DNA of 64,000 nucleotides, taken from the NCBI GenBank assembly GCA_002840095.1, contig PGZL01000012.1, positions 62,001-126,000 of the forward strand, read 5' to 3'. The notes under the pieces were generated by a model, which searched no databases, was not told where the DNA came from, and saw only the letters and a program-made list of their open reading frames with translations. Positions 1,462 to 11,270 of the stretch are shown in pieces (the first letter of the stretch is position 1; every line of letters begins with the position of its first letter). A program made the position numbers and the translations under genes. Source of the DNA: Gammaproteobacteria bacterium HGW-Gammaproteobacteria-1. Its GTDB lineage: Bacteria > Pseudomonadota > Gammaproteobacteria > Thiohalomonadales > Thiohalomonadaceae.

Positions 1462-1551
1462 TTTCAGGGTAAACCTCCGCGGGCTCGGGCTTCAGCCCGA
1501 CCTGCACTGAGCATGGTATCCTTGCCCCCCTGTGATTTGCGGAATCCCCCA

Positions 1552-2844
1552 ATGAAACGTATCCCTGCCCTCGCCGCCCTGCTGGGCGGCCTGTTGTTGT
1601 CGTTCCCGCCGCTGCACGCCGCCCCCCGGGTGGAGGAGCTGAACCGCATCGTCGCGGTGGTGGACGAGGAAGCCATCACCAGCCTGGAACTGGAAAAGCG
1701 CCTGCAGGCGATCCTCGCCCAGTTGCGCCAGAACGGCACACCGGCCCCGCCGCGGGAGATCCTGCAACGCCAGGTGCTGGAGCGCCTGATCATCGAACGC
1801 CTCCAGCTCACCCTCGCCGCCGACCGCGGCGTGCGCGTCGACGACGAAGCGCTGAACCAGGTGATTACCCGCATCGCCGCCCAGAACAAGCTGACCCTGC
1901 CGCAGTTCCGCGAAACGCTGGAGCGCGACGGCGTGGCCTACGCCGACTTCCGCGAGGAAATACGCGGCGAAATCATCATGAACAACCTGCGCGCCCGCGA
2001 AGTGGAAAGCCGCGTCGAAGTGACCCAGCAGGAGGTCGACGAATTCCTCGCCCGCCAGGCCGGCAACGGCAACCTGGACACCGAATACCACCTCGGCCAC
2101 ATCCTCATCGCCGTGCCCGAAGGCGCCGGCCCCGAGCAGGTGCAGGCGGCCCGTGCCCGCGCCCAGCAGGTGCTGGACGAGCTGCGTGGCGGCGCCGATT
2201 TCCGCCAGCTGGCCATCGCCCATTCCAGCGGCCAGCAAGCCTTGCAGGGCGGCGACCTGGGCTGGCGCAAGGGCGGCCAGCTGCCCACCCTGTTCGCCGA
2301 CAACGTGCTGCGGCTGGCGCCGGGCGAAGTGAGCGAGCCGCTACGCAGCTCCAGCGGCTTTCACATCATCAAGCTGCTGGACAAGCGCGGCGAGCAGCGC
2401 CAGTTCGTCACCCAGACCCATGCCCGCCACATCCTGGTGCGCAGCAACGAACTGGTGCCCGATGTCGAGGCGCGCAACAAGCTGTCGCGCCTGCGCGAGC
2501 GCATCCTGCAGGGCGAGGACTTCGCCGCGCTGGCCCGCGCCAACTCCGAGGACCCCGGTTCCGGCACCAGGGGCGGCGACCTGGGCTGGGCCAATCCCGG
2601 AACCTTCGTCGGACCGTTCGAACAGGCCATGAACGGCCTCAAGGCGGGCGAGATCAGCGAACCCTTCCGCAGCCAGTTCGGCTGGCACATCGTGCAGGTG
2701 GTGGAACGGCGCCAGCACGACAGCACCGAAGAACTCAAGCGCAGCCGCGCCTTCGAGGCCATCCGCCAGCGCAAGATCGAGGAAGACACCCAGGACTGGC
2801 TGCGCCGCCTGCGCGACGAGGCCTATGTCGAATATAAAGACTAG
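1552..2844 (+). CDS. surA: Periplasmic chaperone / peptidyl-prolyl isomerase SurA
   Basis: SurA escorts unfolded outer-membrane proteins, including LptD, across the periplasm. The 430-residue product starts with a signal peptide (MKRIPALAALLGGLLL...LHAA). A helical N-terminal chaperone domain with NRIVAVVDEEAITSLEL follows, then two parvulin (PPIC) domains, recognisable as HLGHILIAV...GGDLGWRKGGQLP and HARHILVRS...GGDLGWANPGTFVGPF. Family length is about 430, so it is full length. The frame is open 13 codons further up to 1513, but the signal peptide begins cleanly at 1552, so that start was chosen. It lies between lptD and pdxA as in Escherichia coli. Confidence 0.97.
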   Translation: MKRIPALAALLGGLLLSFPPLHAAPRVEELNRIVAVVDEEAITSLELEKRLQAILAQLRQNGTPAPPREILQRQVLERLIIERLQLTLAADRGVRVDDEALNQVITRIAAQNKLTLPQFRETLERDGVAYADFREEIRGEIIMNNLRAREVESRVEVTQQEVDEFLARQAGNGNLDTEYHLGHILIAVPEGAGPEQVQAARARAQQVLDELRGGADFRQLAIAHSSGQQALQGGDLGWRKGGQLPTLFADNVLRLAPGEVSEPLRSSSGFHIIKLLDKRGEQRQFVTQTHARHILVRSNELVPDVEARNKLSRLRERILQGEDFAALARANSEDPGSGTRGGDLGWANPGTFVGPFEQAMNGLKAGEISEPFRSQFGWHIVQVVERRQHDSTEELKRSRAFEAIRQRKIEEDTQDWLRRLRDEAYVEYKD

Positions 2845-2964: not shown

Positions 2965-3957
2965 ATGCCTGCCATTCCACGTATTGCCCTCACCCCCGGC
3001 GAGCCGGCCGGCATCGGCCCTGATCTTGCGGTGCTGCTGGCGCAGCAACCGCAGGCGGCGGAGATCGTCGCGGTCGCCGATCCGGAGCTACTGCTGCAAC
3101 GGGCGCAGATGCGCGGCGTGCCGCTGCAACTGCGCGAGTTCGATGCTACCGCTGCGCCGCGCATCAACGAACCGGGCTTGCTCACCGTTCTGCCGGTGCC
3201 GCTGGCCGCGCCCGCCACGCCCGGCACGCTGAATGCGGCCAATGCCCCCTATGTGCTGGAGACCCTGCGCCGCGCCACCGCGCTGTGCCAGCAGAAACTC
3301 TGCACCGCCCTGGTCACCGGACCGGTGCACAAGGGCGTCATCAACGACGCCGGCATACCCTTCACCGGGCACACCGAGTTCCTGGCCGAACTGACGCACA
3401 CGCCGCGGGTGGTGATGATGCTGGCGACGCCCGGCCTGCGCGTGGCCCTGGCCACCACCCACCTGCCCCTGCGCGCCGTGGCCGACGCCATCACGCCGCA
3501 ACTGCTGCGCGAGGTGATCGGCATTCTCCAGCACGACCTGAGCACCAAATTCGGTATTGCCCAACCGCGCATCCTGGTGTGCGGCCTCAATCCCCACGCC
3601 GGCGAAGGCGGCCACCTCGGCCGCGAAGAGATCGAGGTGATCGGCCCGGTGCTGGAAAGCCTGCGCGCACAGGGCATGCAACTCATCGGCCCGCTGCCCG
3701 CCGACACCCTGTTCACGCCGCGCCACCTGGAACACGCCGACGCCGTACTCGCCATGTACCACGATCAGGGCCTGCCGGTGCTCAAGCACAAGGGCTTCGG
3801 CCGCGCCGTCAACGTCACCCTCGGCCTGCCCATCGTGCGCACCTCCGTCGACCATGGCACGGCGCTGGAGCTGGCCGGCCGGGGGGACATCGATTTGGGC
3901 AGCCTGGAGTATGCCGTTGCTGTTGCCATAGAGATGGCAACAGCAAAAAAAAGATGA
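2965..3957 (+). CDS. pdxA: 4-hydroxythreonine-4-phosphate dehydrogenase PdxA
   Basis: PdxA oxidises 4-phosphooxy-L-threonine with NAD+ in the DXP-dependent branch of pyridoxal 5'-phosphate synthesis, acting with PdxJ in the cytoplasm. The 330-residue protein has the family start [16 protein letters not shown] and the divalent-metal/substrate motifs [23 protein letters not shown] and [15 protein letters not shown]. The C-terminal [15 protein letters not shown] is also typical. Length matches the family (about 330). The gene lies 120 bp after surA, with a half repeat element in the gap, and is followed by another repeat before rsmA. Co-transcription with surA is likely but not shown. Confidence 0.97.
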
Positions 3958-4026: not shown

Positions 4027-4800
4027 ATGGAACATAAAGCCCGCAAACGCTTCGGCCAGAACTTCCTGCATGATCGTCATGTGATCGATCGCATCGTGCG
4101 CGCCATTCATCCCAAGGCCGGCGAGCGGCTGGTGGAGATCGGTCCCGGCCTCGGCGCGCTGACGCTGCCGCTGTTGCAGGCGGCCGGGCGGCTGGAGGTG
4201 GTGGAGCTGGATCGCGACCTGATCCCCAAGCTGGCCGAGCAGTGCGCCGGCAAGGGCGAGCTGCTGATCCACAGCGCCGACGCCCTCAAGTTTGATTTTT
4301 GCTCGCTGGCAACGGACGGCAAGCTGCGTCTCGCCGGCAACCTGCCCTACAACATCTCCACCCCGCTGATCTTCCACCTGCTCGATCAGGCGCGCTGCAT
4401 CGACGACATGCATTTCATGCTGCAAAAGGAAGTGGTGGAACGGCTGGCGGCGAAGCCCGACACCAGCGACTACGGCCGCCTCAGCGTCATGGTGCAGTTC
4501 CGCTGCAAGGTGGAGCAGCTGTTCATCGTGCCGCCCGGCGCCTTCACCCCGGCGCCCAAGGTGGAGTCGGCCATCGTGCGCCTGGAGCCCTACGCCGAGC
4601 CGCCGGTAAACGTCGATGCCTCCGTGCTGGAAAAGCTGGTGGCCCAGGCCTTCGGCCAGCGCCGCAAGACCCTGCGCAACACTCTCAAGGGCCTGCTCGA
4701 TGCGGAAGCCATCGAGGCCGCCGGCATCGACCCGCAGCGCCGCGCCGAGACCCTCAGCCTGCAAGAGTTCGCCGCCCTGGCCAACCGCGTCACGGGGTAG
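4027..4800 (+). CDS. rsmA: 16S rRNA dimethyladenosine transferase RsmA (KsgA)
   Basis: RsmA dimethylates the two adjacent adenosines in the 3'-terminal hairpin of 16S rRNA (A1518/A1519 in E. coli) using S-adenosylmethionine, a late step in 30S maturation. The 257 residues begin with the family signature RKRFGQNFLHD. Then come the SAM-binding motif VEIGPGLGALT, the catalytic NLPYNIS motif, and the C-terminal small domain with FGQRRKTLRNTLKG. Full length. It follows pdxA as in enterobacteria, but apaG and apaH, which normally follow, lie about 8-10 kb away in this genome. No conventional Shine-Dalgarno sequence is visible because a repeat arm abuts the start. Confidence 0.97.
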   Translation: MEHKARKRFGQNFLHDRHVIDRIVRAIHPKAGERLVEIGPGLGALTLPLLQAAGRLEVVELDRDLIPKLAEQCAGKGELLIHSADALKFDFCSLATDGKLRLAGNLPYNISTPLIFHLLDQARCIDDMHFMLQKEVVERLAAKPDTSDYGRLSVMVQFRCKVEQLFIVPPGAFTPAPKVESAIVRLEPYAEPPVNVDASVLEKLVAQAFGQRRKTLRNTLKGLLDAEAIEAAGIDPQRRAETLSLQEFAALANRVTG

Positions 4801-8072: not shown

Positions 8073-8105
8073 GTGAACGCCAGCCTACCCCGTGGAGCGA
8101 TAACC

Positions 8106-9149
8106 ATGCACGAACAGGTACAACACTATTACGGCAACGTGCTGCAAGGCAGCGCCGACCTGAAGACCGACGCCTGCTGCACCGCGGCCGCGCCGCCGCC
8201 GCACCTGCGCGCCGCACTCAATGAGGTGCACGAAGAGGTGCGCGGGCGCTACTACGGCTGCGGCCTGGTGGTGCCGCCGCTGCTGGAGGGCATGAGCGTG
8301 CTCGACCTGGGCTGCGGCGCCGGCCAGGACTGCTACGTGCTGGCACAGTTGGTGGGGCCAGACGGTTCCGTGGTCGGCGTGGACATGACCGCGGAACAGC
8401 TCGCCGTGGCCGAGCGCCACCGCGCCTGGCACGCCGAACGCTTCGGCTACGCCAACGTGGAATTCCGTCACGGCTACATCGAGCGCCTGGGCGCGCTGGG
8501 CCTCGCCGACGCCAGCTTCGACCTCATCGTCTCCAACTGCGTCATCAACCTGGTGCCGGACAAGGCCGCCGTGCTGCGCGAGGCGCGCCGCCTGCTCAAG
8601 CCCGGCGGCGAGCTTTATTTCTCCGACGTCTACGCCGATCGCCGCGTGCCGGCGGATTTGGCCGCCGACCCGGTGCTGTACGGCGAGTGCCTGGGCGGCG
8701 CCCTGTACTGGAACGACTTCCTGCGCCTGGCCCGCGCGGCCGGCTTCACCGACCCGCGCCTGGTGGAAGACCGCCCGCTGGCGATCCAGAACGCCGAGGT
8801 GCAGGCCAAGGTGGGCCAGGTGCGCTTCTATTCCGCCACCTACCGCCTGTTCAAACTGGACGGCCTGGAGCCGGACTGCGAGGACTACGGCCAGGCGGTG
8901 CGCTATCGCGGCAGCGTGCCGCACCACCCGCACCAGTTGGTGCTCGACAAGCACCACCACATGGAAGCCGGCCGCATGTTCCCGGTGTGCGGCAACACCT
9001 GGCGCATGCTGCACGACACCCGCTTTGCCGCTCACTTCGAGTTCTTCGGCGACTTCAGCCGCCACTACGGCCTGTTCCCCGGCTGCGGCGGCGGCCTGCC
9101 TTTCGATGGCGGCAGCGCACCGGACGACGCGGCCGGCTGTTGCTGCTGA
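8106..9149 (+). CDS. ArsM-like arsenite methyltransferase family protein
   Basis: The 347 residues follow the ArsM pattern throughout. They begin with YYGNVLQGSADLKTDACC (cysteines at about 24-25). The SAM-binding motif is VLDLGCGAGQDCYVLAQLVG, then come VSNCVINLVPDK, ELYFSDVYADRRVPADL and YGECLGGALYW. The C-terminal half has CEDYGQAV, MFPVCGNTWRML and HYGLFPGCGGG, and the protein ends CCC. ArsM transfers methyl groups from SAM to As(III) bound by cysteine thiolates. No arsR, arsB or acr3 lies nearby, so the substrate may differ or the gene may act alone. The Met at 8106 follows a GGAG and begins the conserved N-terminus. Confidence 0.85.
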   Translation: MHEQVQHYYGNVLQGSADLKTDACCTAAAPPPHLRAALNEVHEEVRGRYYGCGLVVPPLLEGMSVLDLGCGAGQDCYVLAQLVGPDGSVVGVDMTAEQLAVAERHRAWHAERFGYANVEFRHGYIERLGALGLADASFDLIVSNCVINLVPDKAAVLREARRLLKPGGELYFSDVYADRRVPADLAADPVLYGECLGGALYWNDFLRLARAAGFTDPRLVEDRPLAIQNAEVQAKVGQVRFYSATYRLFKLDGLEPDCEDYGQAVRYRGSVPHHPHQLVLDKHHHMEAGRMFPVCGNTWRMLHDTRFAAHFEFFGDFSRHYGLFPGCGGGLPFDGGSAPDDAAGCCC

Positions 9150-9345: not shown

Positions 9346-10806
9346 ATGACAGCAACCACTCACTCATCCACCTGGCTGATCTTCCGCATCGGCCGCGTCG
9401 CCTGTGCCGTGCCGGCACTGGCGGTGGACAGCATTCTGCCCGTGCCGGAGCACATCACCGCCGTTCCCGGCGCCGACGCCGGCAACCCCGGACTGTTCCA
9501 TCACAACAGCGGCACCATGGCGGTCATCGACCTGCGCCACCGCTTCGGCTGCGAAGCCCCCGACCCGAAGCGGGGCCGGCTGCTGCTGGGCCACGTGAGC
9601 GGCCGCGGCTACGGCTTCTGGGTGGACAGCGTCGTCGGCCTGGCCGATGCCGATCAGGTCAAACCGGCGCCGCTGCCGCCGGAGCTGCCCCACAATGTCT
9701 TCACCGCCGCCCTGCGCCATCACGACGAAATCGTGTTGTGCAGCGATCTGGCACGGCTGCTGGCCATGCGGGATGCCGGCGGCCTGCGCCACCTGGTCTG
9801 TGCCGCCCCACCGGCTGCAGCGGCGACGATCGAGCCTGCCGGGACGCCGCCTCTGCCCCGCGCCGCCACGCCGTCCGCCCGGGAGAGCGCGCCCCTGCCC
9901 CCCATCCCGGCTCCAGTTGCACCGCCATCGGTGCCGTCCCCTGCGCTCCGTCCCGCCCCGCCGCTGCCGCCGCGCCACACGACGCCTGTCCGTCCCGCCG
10001 CCCCGGCACCGACAACGCCAGGCCGGGCGGCCATCCGGACGGCGCCGGCCCCGGCGACAAAGACCGCTGCGCCACGGGCAACCCCGGCCCCGGCGGCAAC
10101 GACTGCCCCGCCCCGGGCCGCCCCTGCGCCCCAAGCGCCGTCTCCCGCACGCCCGGAAATGCCGGCCCCTGTACCGATCCCCCCCATGGCGCCGATCCCG
10201 CCTGCACCCACGGGCGCGCCGTCCCGGCTCTGGCTACTCCTGCTGCTGGTGGCCGGCGTGGCCGCCGGCGGGTTCTGGCTGTGGCCCGAGGAACAGACGG
10301 CGCAACCGCCGCGGATCGAGCCGCCGCCGGCGGTTTATATGGCACCGGCACCGACATCGGCGCCCAAACCCGAACCGGAGCCGGCCCCCGCGCCGGTGAC
10401 CGCCCCGATGGCAGCCGCGGCCCCGGCCGCCACGCCGCTGTTCCAGGGCGACGGCATCCAGGTGGAACAGAACGGCGCCGACATCACCATCATCATCGAC
10501 CGCGCCAAAACGGAAGCCGGGCCACCGCCCGCCGCGGCGGAACCCGAGCCGATGCCGGTGCCCGGCGCCGGAGCGGAGGCGGAAGCGGAAACCCCGCCGA
10601 TCGCGCCCGCCCCCGAACCCGCACCACCGGCGAGCGCGCCGCAGCAGATGTATGTCCACACCGTCGTCAGGGGCGATACCCTGTGGGACATCGCCGAGCG
10701 CTATCTGGACGATCCCTGGCGCTACAAGGAGCTGGCGCAGTTGAGCCGGATACGCAATCCGGACCTGATCTATCCGGGCAACAAGGTGCGCATCATCATT
10801 CGATGA
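9346..10806 (+). CDS. CheW-like domain / transmembrane / LysM fusion protein
   Basis: The 486-residue protein has an unusual architecture. Residues 8-150 look like a CheW-like domain (WLIFRIGRVACAVPALAVDSI, GTMAVIDLRHRFG, GFWVDSVVGLAD). Residues 155-293 are a Pro/Ala-rich linker and 295-312 a single TM helix (LWLLLLLVAGVAAGGFWLW). A second Pro/Ala/Glu-rich stretch precedes a C-terminal LysM domain at 436-485 (HTVVRGDTLWDIAERYL...NPDLIYPGNKVRI). Predicted topology puts the CheW part in the cytoplasm and LysM on peptidoglycan, resembling FimV-type organisation in reverse. Its likely job is to couple a chemosensory or polar complex to the cell wall (inference). An in-frame extension upstream of 9346 is G+C-rich junk with no domain. 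ComFB follows 183 bp downstream. Confidence 0.8.
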   Translation: MTATTHSSTWLIFRIGRVACAVPALAVDSILPVPEHITAVPGADAGNPGLFHHNSGTMAVIDLRHRFGCEAPDPKRGRLLLGHVSGRGYGFWVDSVVGLADADQVKPAPLPPELPHNVFTAALRHHDEIVLCSDLARLLAMRDAGGLRHLVCAAPPAAAATIEPAGTPPLPRAATPSARESAPLPPIPAPVAPPSVPSPALRPAPPLPPRHTTPVRPAAPAPTTPGRAAIRTAPAPATKTAAPRATPAPAATTAPPRAAPAPQAPSPARPEMPAPVPIPPMAPIPPAPTGAPSRLWLLLLLVAGVAAGGFWLWPEEQTAQPPRIEPPPAVYMAPAPTSAPKPEPEPAPAPVTAPMAAAAPAATPLFQGDGIQVEQNGADITIIIDRAKTEAGPPPAAAEPEPMPVPGAGAEAEAETPPIAPAPEPAPPASAPQQMYVHTVVRGDTLWDIAERYLDDPWRYKELAQLSRIRNPDLIYPGNKVRIIIR

Positions 10807-10988: not shown

Positions 10989-11270
10989 ATGAACTTCGAG
11001 AACATACATAACTACTACGAAAAACTGGTGTTCGAACGCCTGCAGGACGAGGTGGCGGAAAAACAGGGCATCACCGACGAGGACTTGCTCGAAGACGTCG
11101 CCTGCGTCGCCCTCAACCGCCTGCCGACGCGCTATGTGCGCTATGACGTGGACACCGCCTTTTTCATGAGCGACGAGGAGCGGCAGCACATGGAAATTCA
11201 GGTGGCGGCCGCCGTGGACGCCGCGCTCGAGTACGTGCAGCAGAACGGCCTGCTCCACGAGGCCGGCTGA
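10989..11270 (+). CDS. ComFB family protein (late competence development protein ComFB)
   Basis: The 93-residue protein matches the ComFB family: NIHNYYEKLVFERLQDE at the N-terminus, then DVACVALNRLPTRYVRYDVD and FFMSDEERQHMEIQVAAAVDAAL. In Bacillus ComFB lies in the comF operon. Members in other phyla have been reported to bind cyclic dinucleotides, including c-di-GMP, which would fit the two GGDEF/EAL proteins in this window (inference). The N-terminal Cys pairs of Bacillus ComFB are absent. It starts 12 bp before pgl ends of the cluster, with a short gap to pgl that suggests co-transcription. Confidence 0.8.
   Translation: MNFENIHNYYEKLVFERLQDEVAEKQGITDEDLLEDVACVALNRLPTRYVRYDVDTAFFMSDEERQHMEIQVAAAVDAALEYVQQNGLLHEAG

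Follow-up and report, generated by a model that had tools for sequence, protein, structure and literature searches.

A CheW-LysM membrane fusion family with a possible role as a wall-anchored scaffold of chemosensory arrays

We observed that a gene in the window, a 64,000-nucleotide stretch of contig PGZL01000012.1 from Gammaproteobacteria bacterium HGW-Gammaproteobacteria-1, encodes a CheW domain, a single transmembrane (TM) helix and a LysM domain in one chain. The fusion is confirmed as real, and it recurs in other genomes. We hypothesize that the protein serves polar flagellar chemosensory arrays as a CheW-family scaffold anchored in peptidoglycan, a reading to which we give a probability of about 0.5. 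What is known of polar holding comes mainly from relays, HubP-ParC-ParP being an example. CheW and LysM in a single chain would directly link an array to the wall and would allow a simple genetic test; at stake is how arrays stay at the pole, and whether the wall takes part.

Gene, domains and membrane topology

The reading frame at 9346-10806 on the forward strand gives 486 residues counted from its ATG, and the same frame stays open upstream of 9346 as far as a TTG at 9025. We take the ATG at 9346 as the start because the homologous frames in genomes G002 and G003 contain or begin with the same MTATTHSS. The features of the gene are as follows.

9346..10806, + strand: coding sequence of the CheW-TM-LysM protein, 486 aa (open reading frame; start backed by the G002 and G003 homologues)
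9373..9765, + strand: CheW domain, residues 10-140 (Pfam, AlphaFold2, Foldseek)
9796..10227, + strand: Pro/Ala-rich linker, residues 151-294, predicted to be cytoplasmic (composition, low pLDDT, net charge +9)
10228..10281, + strand: single TM helix, residues 295-312 (hydropathy, helix in the AlphaFold2 model)
10441..10497, + strand: short beta-hairpin in the model, residues 366-384, probably periplasmic (AlphaFold2, pLDDT 65-76 per ten residues)
10657..10794, + strand: LysM domain, residues 438-483, predicted to be periplasmic (Pfam)

From the letters alone, an earlier note had read a CheW-like region at residues 8-150, a TM segment at 295-312 and a LysM domain at about 436-485, in that order and joined by long Pro/Ala linkers, and each of these elements was borne out. 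Pfam matches CheW (PF01584) at residues 10-140 with 57.7 bits (cut-off 23.5; E 1.3e-15; model positions 2-135 of 138) and LysM (PF01476) at 438-483 with 43.1 bits (cut-off 20.9). Outside the CheW domain there is one hydropathy peak, at 295-313 (KD 2.07). The linkers, one before the TM helix and a second between it and LysM, consist of about one third Pro and one quarter Ala. In an AlphaFold2 model built with 19 sequences, mean pLDDT per ten residues is 74-96 over residues 11-150, 70-71 in the helix at 295-312, 63-80 in the LysM region (431-486) and low in the linkers, with a whole-chain mean of 66.3. Foldseek ranks 6s1k_C first for this model (E 6.6e-12, TMt 0.77). This chain of the core signalling unit of E. 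coli is CheW according to the family-profile search of structure chains, and the model is nearest to E. coli CheW; structures titled LysM scored no better than E 0.1. A strand-like run occurs in 15 of 21 members, a weak excess over the 8.8 expected from shuffles, by a coarse criterion that in some members probably picks up a different element. FimV_core (TIGR03505) is absent among the seven NCBIfam matches of the window protein up to E 1.

The CheW fold begins at about residue 9 and leaves no room ahead of it for a signal peptide, which is therefore unlikely. We compared K+R counts in the 30 residues on either side of the TM helix: the count ahead of the helix is the larger one in 14 of 21 members and the smaller one in four, with three ties (Wilcoxon P 0.02). 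The window protein itself has two on each side, with a net charge of +1 before and -2 after. This bias favours, only moderately, an arrangement with CheW inside and LysM outside. Given the N-terminal position of CheW and the K+R bias, a cytoplasmic CheW and the periplasmic LysM domain proposed earlier form the likelier topology, which is in part a prediction.

Distribution and evolution of the family

The fusion, or pieces of it, was found in at least 21 genomes of the class, from ten families, and on four named contigs, two of which are Desulfobacterota MAGs. As the family spans two phyla, it is no peculiarity of a single MAG. Every one of the 19 members in alignment A2 has Pfam matches to both CheW and LysM, and this, together with the low dN/dS within the genus, argues that the fusion is not due to chance. 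Chance juxtaposition and assembly artefact are ruled out by these matches and by the unbroken fusion in many genomes.

A first survey of 56 genomes gave matches in 43, most of them limited to LysM or to CheW. The two parts occurred together in G002, G003 (full length), G013 and G052; G001 also has them, spread over two overlapping frames. A draw of 369 genomes gave 13 with both domains in one frame (the window genome G000 and G052, G071, G145, G155, G205, G257, G309, G313, G318, G335, G352 and G362), two with a broken frame (G001 and G196) and three with pieces cut by contig ends (G054, G120 and G209). Carriers thus number at least 18 of 369, from ten families and with a second copy in G071; this is a lower bound, as few candidates were scored per genome. 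The search profile took in wrong-strand translations of the CheW loci L001, L003, L008 and L013, and the tree used the correct reading. Among the best 80 of 382 relatives in a scan of named contigs, at least six have both domains in one frame (L083-L088). L083, a Thiohalomonas denitrificans MAG, is apparently the G003 contig and L086 apparently G362; L085 belongs to Chromatiales, L087 to Gammaproteobacteria, L084 (cut at its 5' end) to Desulfobacteraceae and L088 to Thermodesulfobacteriota.

In the tree, a branch with 98/98 support, present in 97% of bootstrap trees, separates the 22 family CheW domains from the 13 others, all of which come from the window's genome; some long branches meet in this tree. 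This fits a single origin of the fusion. Across three genomes of the genus, identity is 83-91% in CheW (dN/dS 0.15-0.33), 90-94% in LysM (dN/dS 0.05-0.10) and 51-53% in the middle (dN/dS 0.35-0.49, with high dS and a rough linker alignment). These ratios indicate that the CheW and LysM ends are both maintained by purifying selection.

Several loci depart from the full architecture. The fusion halves in G001 (L064) and G196 (L079) lie in different overlapping frames, which is either a real break or a sequencing error. In G120, the CheW piece L194:3-863 and the LysM piece L199:6950-8983, which are unjoined, end at contig ends in short Ser/Thr-Glu-Val-type repeats; such a repeat probably broke the assembly. 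A similar LysM part that has no Pfam CheW match occurs at L074:8713-11037, L077:1385-3619 and L198:6580-7311, the last cut by a contig end. The L074 protein starts beside receiver, CheB, MCP and CheW genes, and the L077 protein beside similar receiver genes, as read by eye. Frames with CheW at the N-terminus in G135, G250 and G217 look by eye like runs of CheW-like units and were excluded as members. L200:5930-7474, L201:6769-8322 and L202:6263-7699 encode proteins of ~480-520 aa in which CheW-like units, three by eye, follow one another, and each of these stretches also contains a CheA match.

Proposed role and its alternatives

We assessed how close the family domain is to known CheW and CheA proteins. 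A phmmer search with the CheW domain of the window protein alone reached TtCheW at no better than E 0.006. With the family profile, TtCheW scored E 2.7e-21, compared to 3.4e-4 for the best CheA chain and worse values for the other CheA chains. By this profile the domain is nearer to CheW than to CheA P5. On paralogues in the window genome the profile gave 75.7 bits for the flagellar CheW, 74.3 for a second CheW, 67.5 for a CheV, 44.9 for PilI, 24.1 for a ParP-like protein, at most 13.5 for CheA and less than zero for ChpC, scores that also reflect how typical a CheW each protein is. The names cheV, pilI, chpC and parP are our presumptive labels, based partly on length and neighbours; library matches were used for CheW and ParA only.

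The receptor groove of T. maritima CheW involves L14, V27, I30 and V33, as given in PMC5706961. When these positions are mapped through the family-profile alignment, three stay hydrophobic in the family (n = 22; L11, V27 and I30 in the window protein), with Ala at window-protein position 27 in one member. At the fourth (A24 in the window protein), 20 of the 22 members have Ala, Ser or Thr. An important segment of canonical CheW adaptors is NLRG, which precedes their second conserved strand. None of the 22 family members has NLRG, and four have Arg at its place (L070, L080, L088 and L084). The 13 other CheW domains of the window genome have NLRG in four cases, NIRG in PilI, and TLRG and HLRG in two CheV proteins; CheA, ChpA, the ParP-like protein (QYRE), the ChpC-like protein and one CheW do without it. 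Since NLRG is often missing among these domains, its absence alone does not exclude a function in arrays; since it is missing in 22 of 22, docking may differ from that of canonical CheW. The family domain is therefore maintained as a CheW, yet differs from a standard coupling protein.

Under the scaffold reading, the CheW domain, cytoplasmic and on a long flexible linker, would dock in the array via CheA and/or receptor tips, the chain would pass the inner membrane once, and LysM would grip peptidoglycan. The wall would thereby hold the array in place or keep it close to one of its regions, for example at the old pole. We favour such a tether. FimV shows that a LysM domain, and ParP that a CheW-like domain, can do such jobs; peptidoglycan binding, array docking and localisation are what we infer, along with part of the topology. 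In G120, a LysM protein that shares the C-terminal part of the family and has no CheW domain adjoins CheW, MCP and CheB genes.

We determined co-occurrence with chemotaxis and polar genes across the draw. Of the 369 genomes, 236 have an H-kinase_dim (CheA) match, including 18/18 carriers (Fisher 2.5e-4). At E<1e-10, a threshold chosen after seeing the table, CheA was found in 186 of 369 (18/18 carriers compared to 168/351 others; Fisher 2.9e-6), and FlhF at E<=1e-30 in 191 of 369 (18/18 compared to 173/351; Fisher 4.7e-6). With only the 13 unbroken carriers these values become 2.7e-3, 1.1e-4 and 1.6e-4, and with the ten families counted as ten draws ~0.011, ~0.0011 and ~0.0014; the P values ignore the relatedness of the genomes. 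When G002, G003 and G013 are included, all 21 carriers of the gammaproteobacterial class have CheA and all 21 have FlhF; the FlhF match is a fragment in G205 and exceeds the cut-off in the other 20. FimV_core was found in 20 of the 21, the miss being G205 (86% complete), and the fusion as a replacement for FimV/HubP is thereby ruled out. The earlier note had suggested that the protein positions arrays or polar complexes. The presence of CheA and FlhF in all 18 draw carriers makes this plausible, and the missing NLRG segment leaves the mode of docking less certain. Overall, the interpretation in that note is partly supported: the domains, their order and the TM helix stand, and topology and positioning are predictions.

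Other observations speak against the scaffold. Beside the loss of NLRG throughout the family, we recognised no che operon around the fusion in neighbourhoods read by eye from mechanically chosen ORFs, a minority of which were scanned, and about half of the non-carrier draw genomes have CheA and FlhF but yielded no fusion. A flagellar cluster is already present in the window genome, read by eye as flhF-flhG-fliA-cheY-cheZ-cheA-cheB-mot-parA-parP-cheW (FlhF, CheW, ParA and CheA profile-matched), as are FimV_core matches on contigs C3 and C66; the genome also has another che cluster and one that is Pil-Chp-like. There is no further CheW match on contig C31, which carries the window. An MCP gene adjoins the fusion, on the other strand, at L072 only.

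The neighbours of the window gene include three synteny markers and a ComFB-family gene.

1513..2844, + strand: surA, synteny marker (SurA_N and rotamase domains)
2965..3957, + strand: pdxA, synteny marker (PF04166)
4027..4800, + strand: rsmA, synteny marker (PF00398, 223 bits)
10989..11270, + strand: ComFB-family protein, 93 aa, next gene after the fusion (PF10719, 82.1 bits)

surA, pdxA and rsmA lie upstream of the fusion, and fatty-acid hydroxylase, VTT-domain protein and methyltransferase genes, among others, stand between. Downstream follow ComFB, glucosamine-isomerase/6-phosphogluconolactonase, glucokinase and methyltransferase genes and a metallophosphatase gene read as apaH. In G001, G352, G257 and G196, rsmA is directly upstream of the fusion. 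Two further features of these neighbourhoods were observed. A 162-173 aa HExxH protein (HESCH, HEACH or HETCH) is encoded directly after the fusion at L067:6891-7388, L068:8531-9052, L078:7290-7781 and L079:7852-8340, and in L067 and L068 its gene overlaps the end of the fusion slightly, over a few bases. At E 1e-3 neither of these two proteins had an NCBIfam match, and the L067 protein had none in Pfam either. The methyltransferase at 8073-9149 of the window, with a Cys-rich C-terminal end, is closest to arsenite methyltransferase models, below their cut-offs (182.9 compared to 263 bits).

This neighbourhood bears on the possibility that the CheW domain has left chemotaxis for another partner, such as ComFB or a cyclic-dinucleotide effector, and would link the envelope to a second messenger, which we regard as rather unlikely. 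ComFB binds c-di-AMP, with which c-di-GMP competes (PMC12313861). Among the 19 carriers searched, ComFB lies within two genes after the fusion in seven, from two families (G000-G003, G013, G352 and G257), and a PilZ gene ~60 bases upstream (L088), FIST and GGDEF-EAL genes downstream (L071) and an adjoining GGDEF gene on the other strand (L075) were found at other loci; loss of NLRG in all 22 members would also fit. ComFB is elsewhere in five of the 19, however, and was not found in seven, which rules out a universal partnership; its place may be passively inherited in a conserved block, and the recurrence of cyclic-dinucleotide genes, seen at few loci and with no control, may be chance. The constant presence of CheA and FlhF in the draw carriers also argues against a departure from chemotaxis.

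It is unlikely that the protein is instead a sensor, in which wall state or tension, received through LysM and the linkers, alters CheW-CheA coupling as a receptor-independent input. The altered NLRG segment fits a CheW that goes beyond plain canonical coupling, a hairpin is modelled in the periplasm besides LysM, and CheWS, another CheW fusion, is assigned a signal-input role in the relevant part of PMC10653840. The long linkers change too fast within the genus to be good at passing on force or conformation, though, and LysM is the only input-type domain that Pfam recognises in the window protein. A more speculative variant, which we consider quite improbable, makes the wall-anchored CheW a second, receptor-like node of the array through which wall state or geometry, possibly with ComFB or PilZ, would feed CheA without a chemoreceptor.

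There is little to recommend a role in type IV pili, with ChpA complexes tethered at the pilus poles. The window genome does encode a 1971-aa ChpA-type kinase (named by eye) in its Pil-Chp-like cluster, but no H-kinase_dim match in a frame >1900 aa was found in G205, G313, G362, G155, G071, G052, G120 or G335, with a model that is weak on ChpA, and with the family profile the flagellar CheW outscores both PilI and ChpC. Pil-Chp as a common partner of the family is thus weakened. That the CheW domain is a degenerate relic in what is only a LysM membrane protein is highly improbable: the missing NLRG would fit, as would the G120 and G335 proteins in which Pfam finds no CheW beside the LysM part, but the low dN/dS of CheW, its Pfam match in every A2 member and its well-formed model stand against it.

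Comparison with known systems

The earlier note knew of no named family with this domain order, and our search of the literature by terms, titles and abstract starts found no paper naming a CheW-LysM architecture. The supplement of PMC10653840 lists 30 CheW architectures that were new at the time, among which CheW-LysM may be present; the novelty would therefore lie in the function and in the description of the family. CheV and CheWS also fuse CheW to another domain, but theirs is CheY-like or CheR-like, and the descriptions of them that we drew on include no TM or wall-binding domain.

ParP offers a precedent for the cytoplasmic end. Its CheW-like AIF domain joins the array and couples Vibrio arrays to the ParC localiser, as summarised in PMC5706961. 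Both proteins would use a CheW-like domain as an array link, and the ParP-like protein of the window genome likewise does without NLRG. In ParP, however, the AIF domain is C-terminal behind an N-terminal ParC-binding part, there is no TM helix, and the gene stands beside ParA/ParC in a che operon, whereas the fusion has an N-terminal CheW, a TM helix and LysM and shows none of these ParP features; the low score of the ParP-like protein with the family profile also sets the two apart.

HubP and FimV offer the precedent for the wall-facing end. In the accounts consulted, they have one TM helix, a periplasmic LysM domain and a long low-complexity cytoplasmic part, and they help to place the chemotaxis system (PMC12918733, PMC8789113); in P. 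putida, polar placement depends on the LysM domain of FimV, which binds peptidoglycan (PMC12918733). The fusion resembles them in its single TM helix, its LysM domain and its long low-complexity part. HubP and FimV carry LysM before the TM helix and a C-terminal TPR/FimV domain, whereas the order is reversed in the fusion and its cytoplasmic domain is CheW. As a scaffold, the fusion would join ParP-like and HubP/FimV-like functions in one chain and would act in addition to these proteins.
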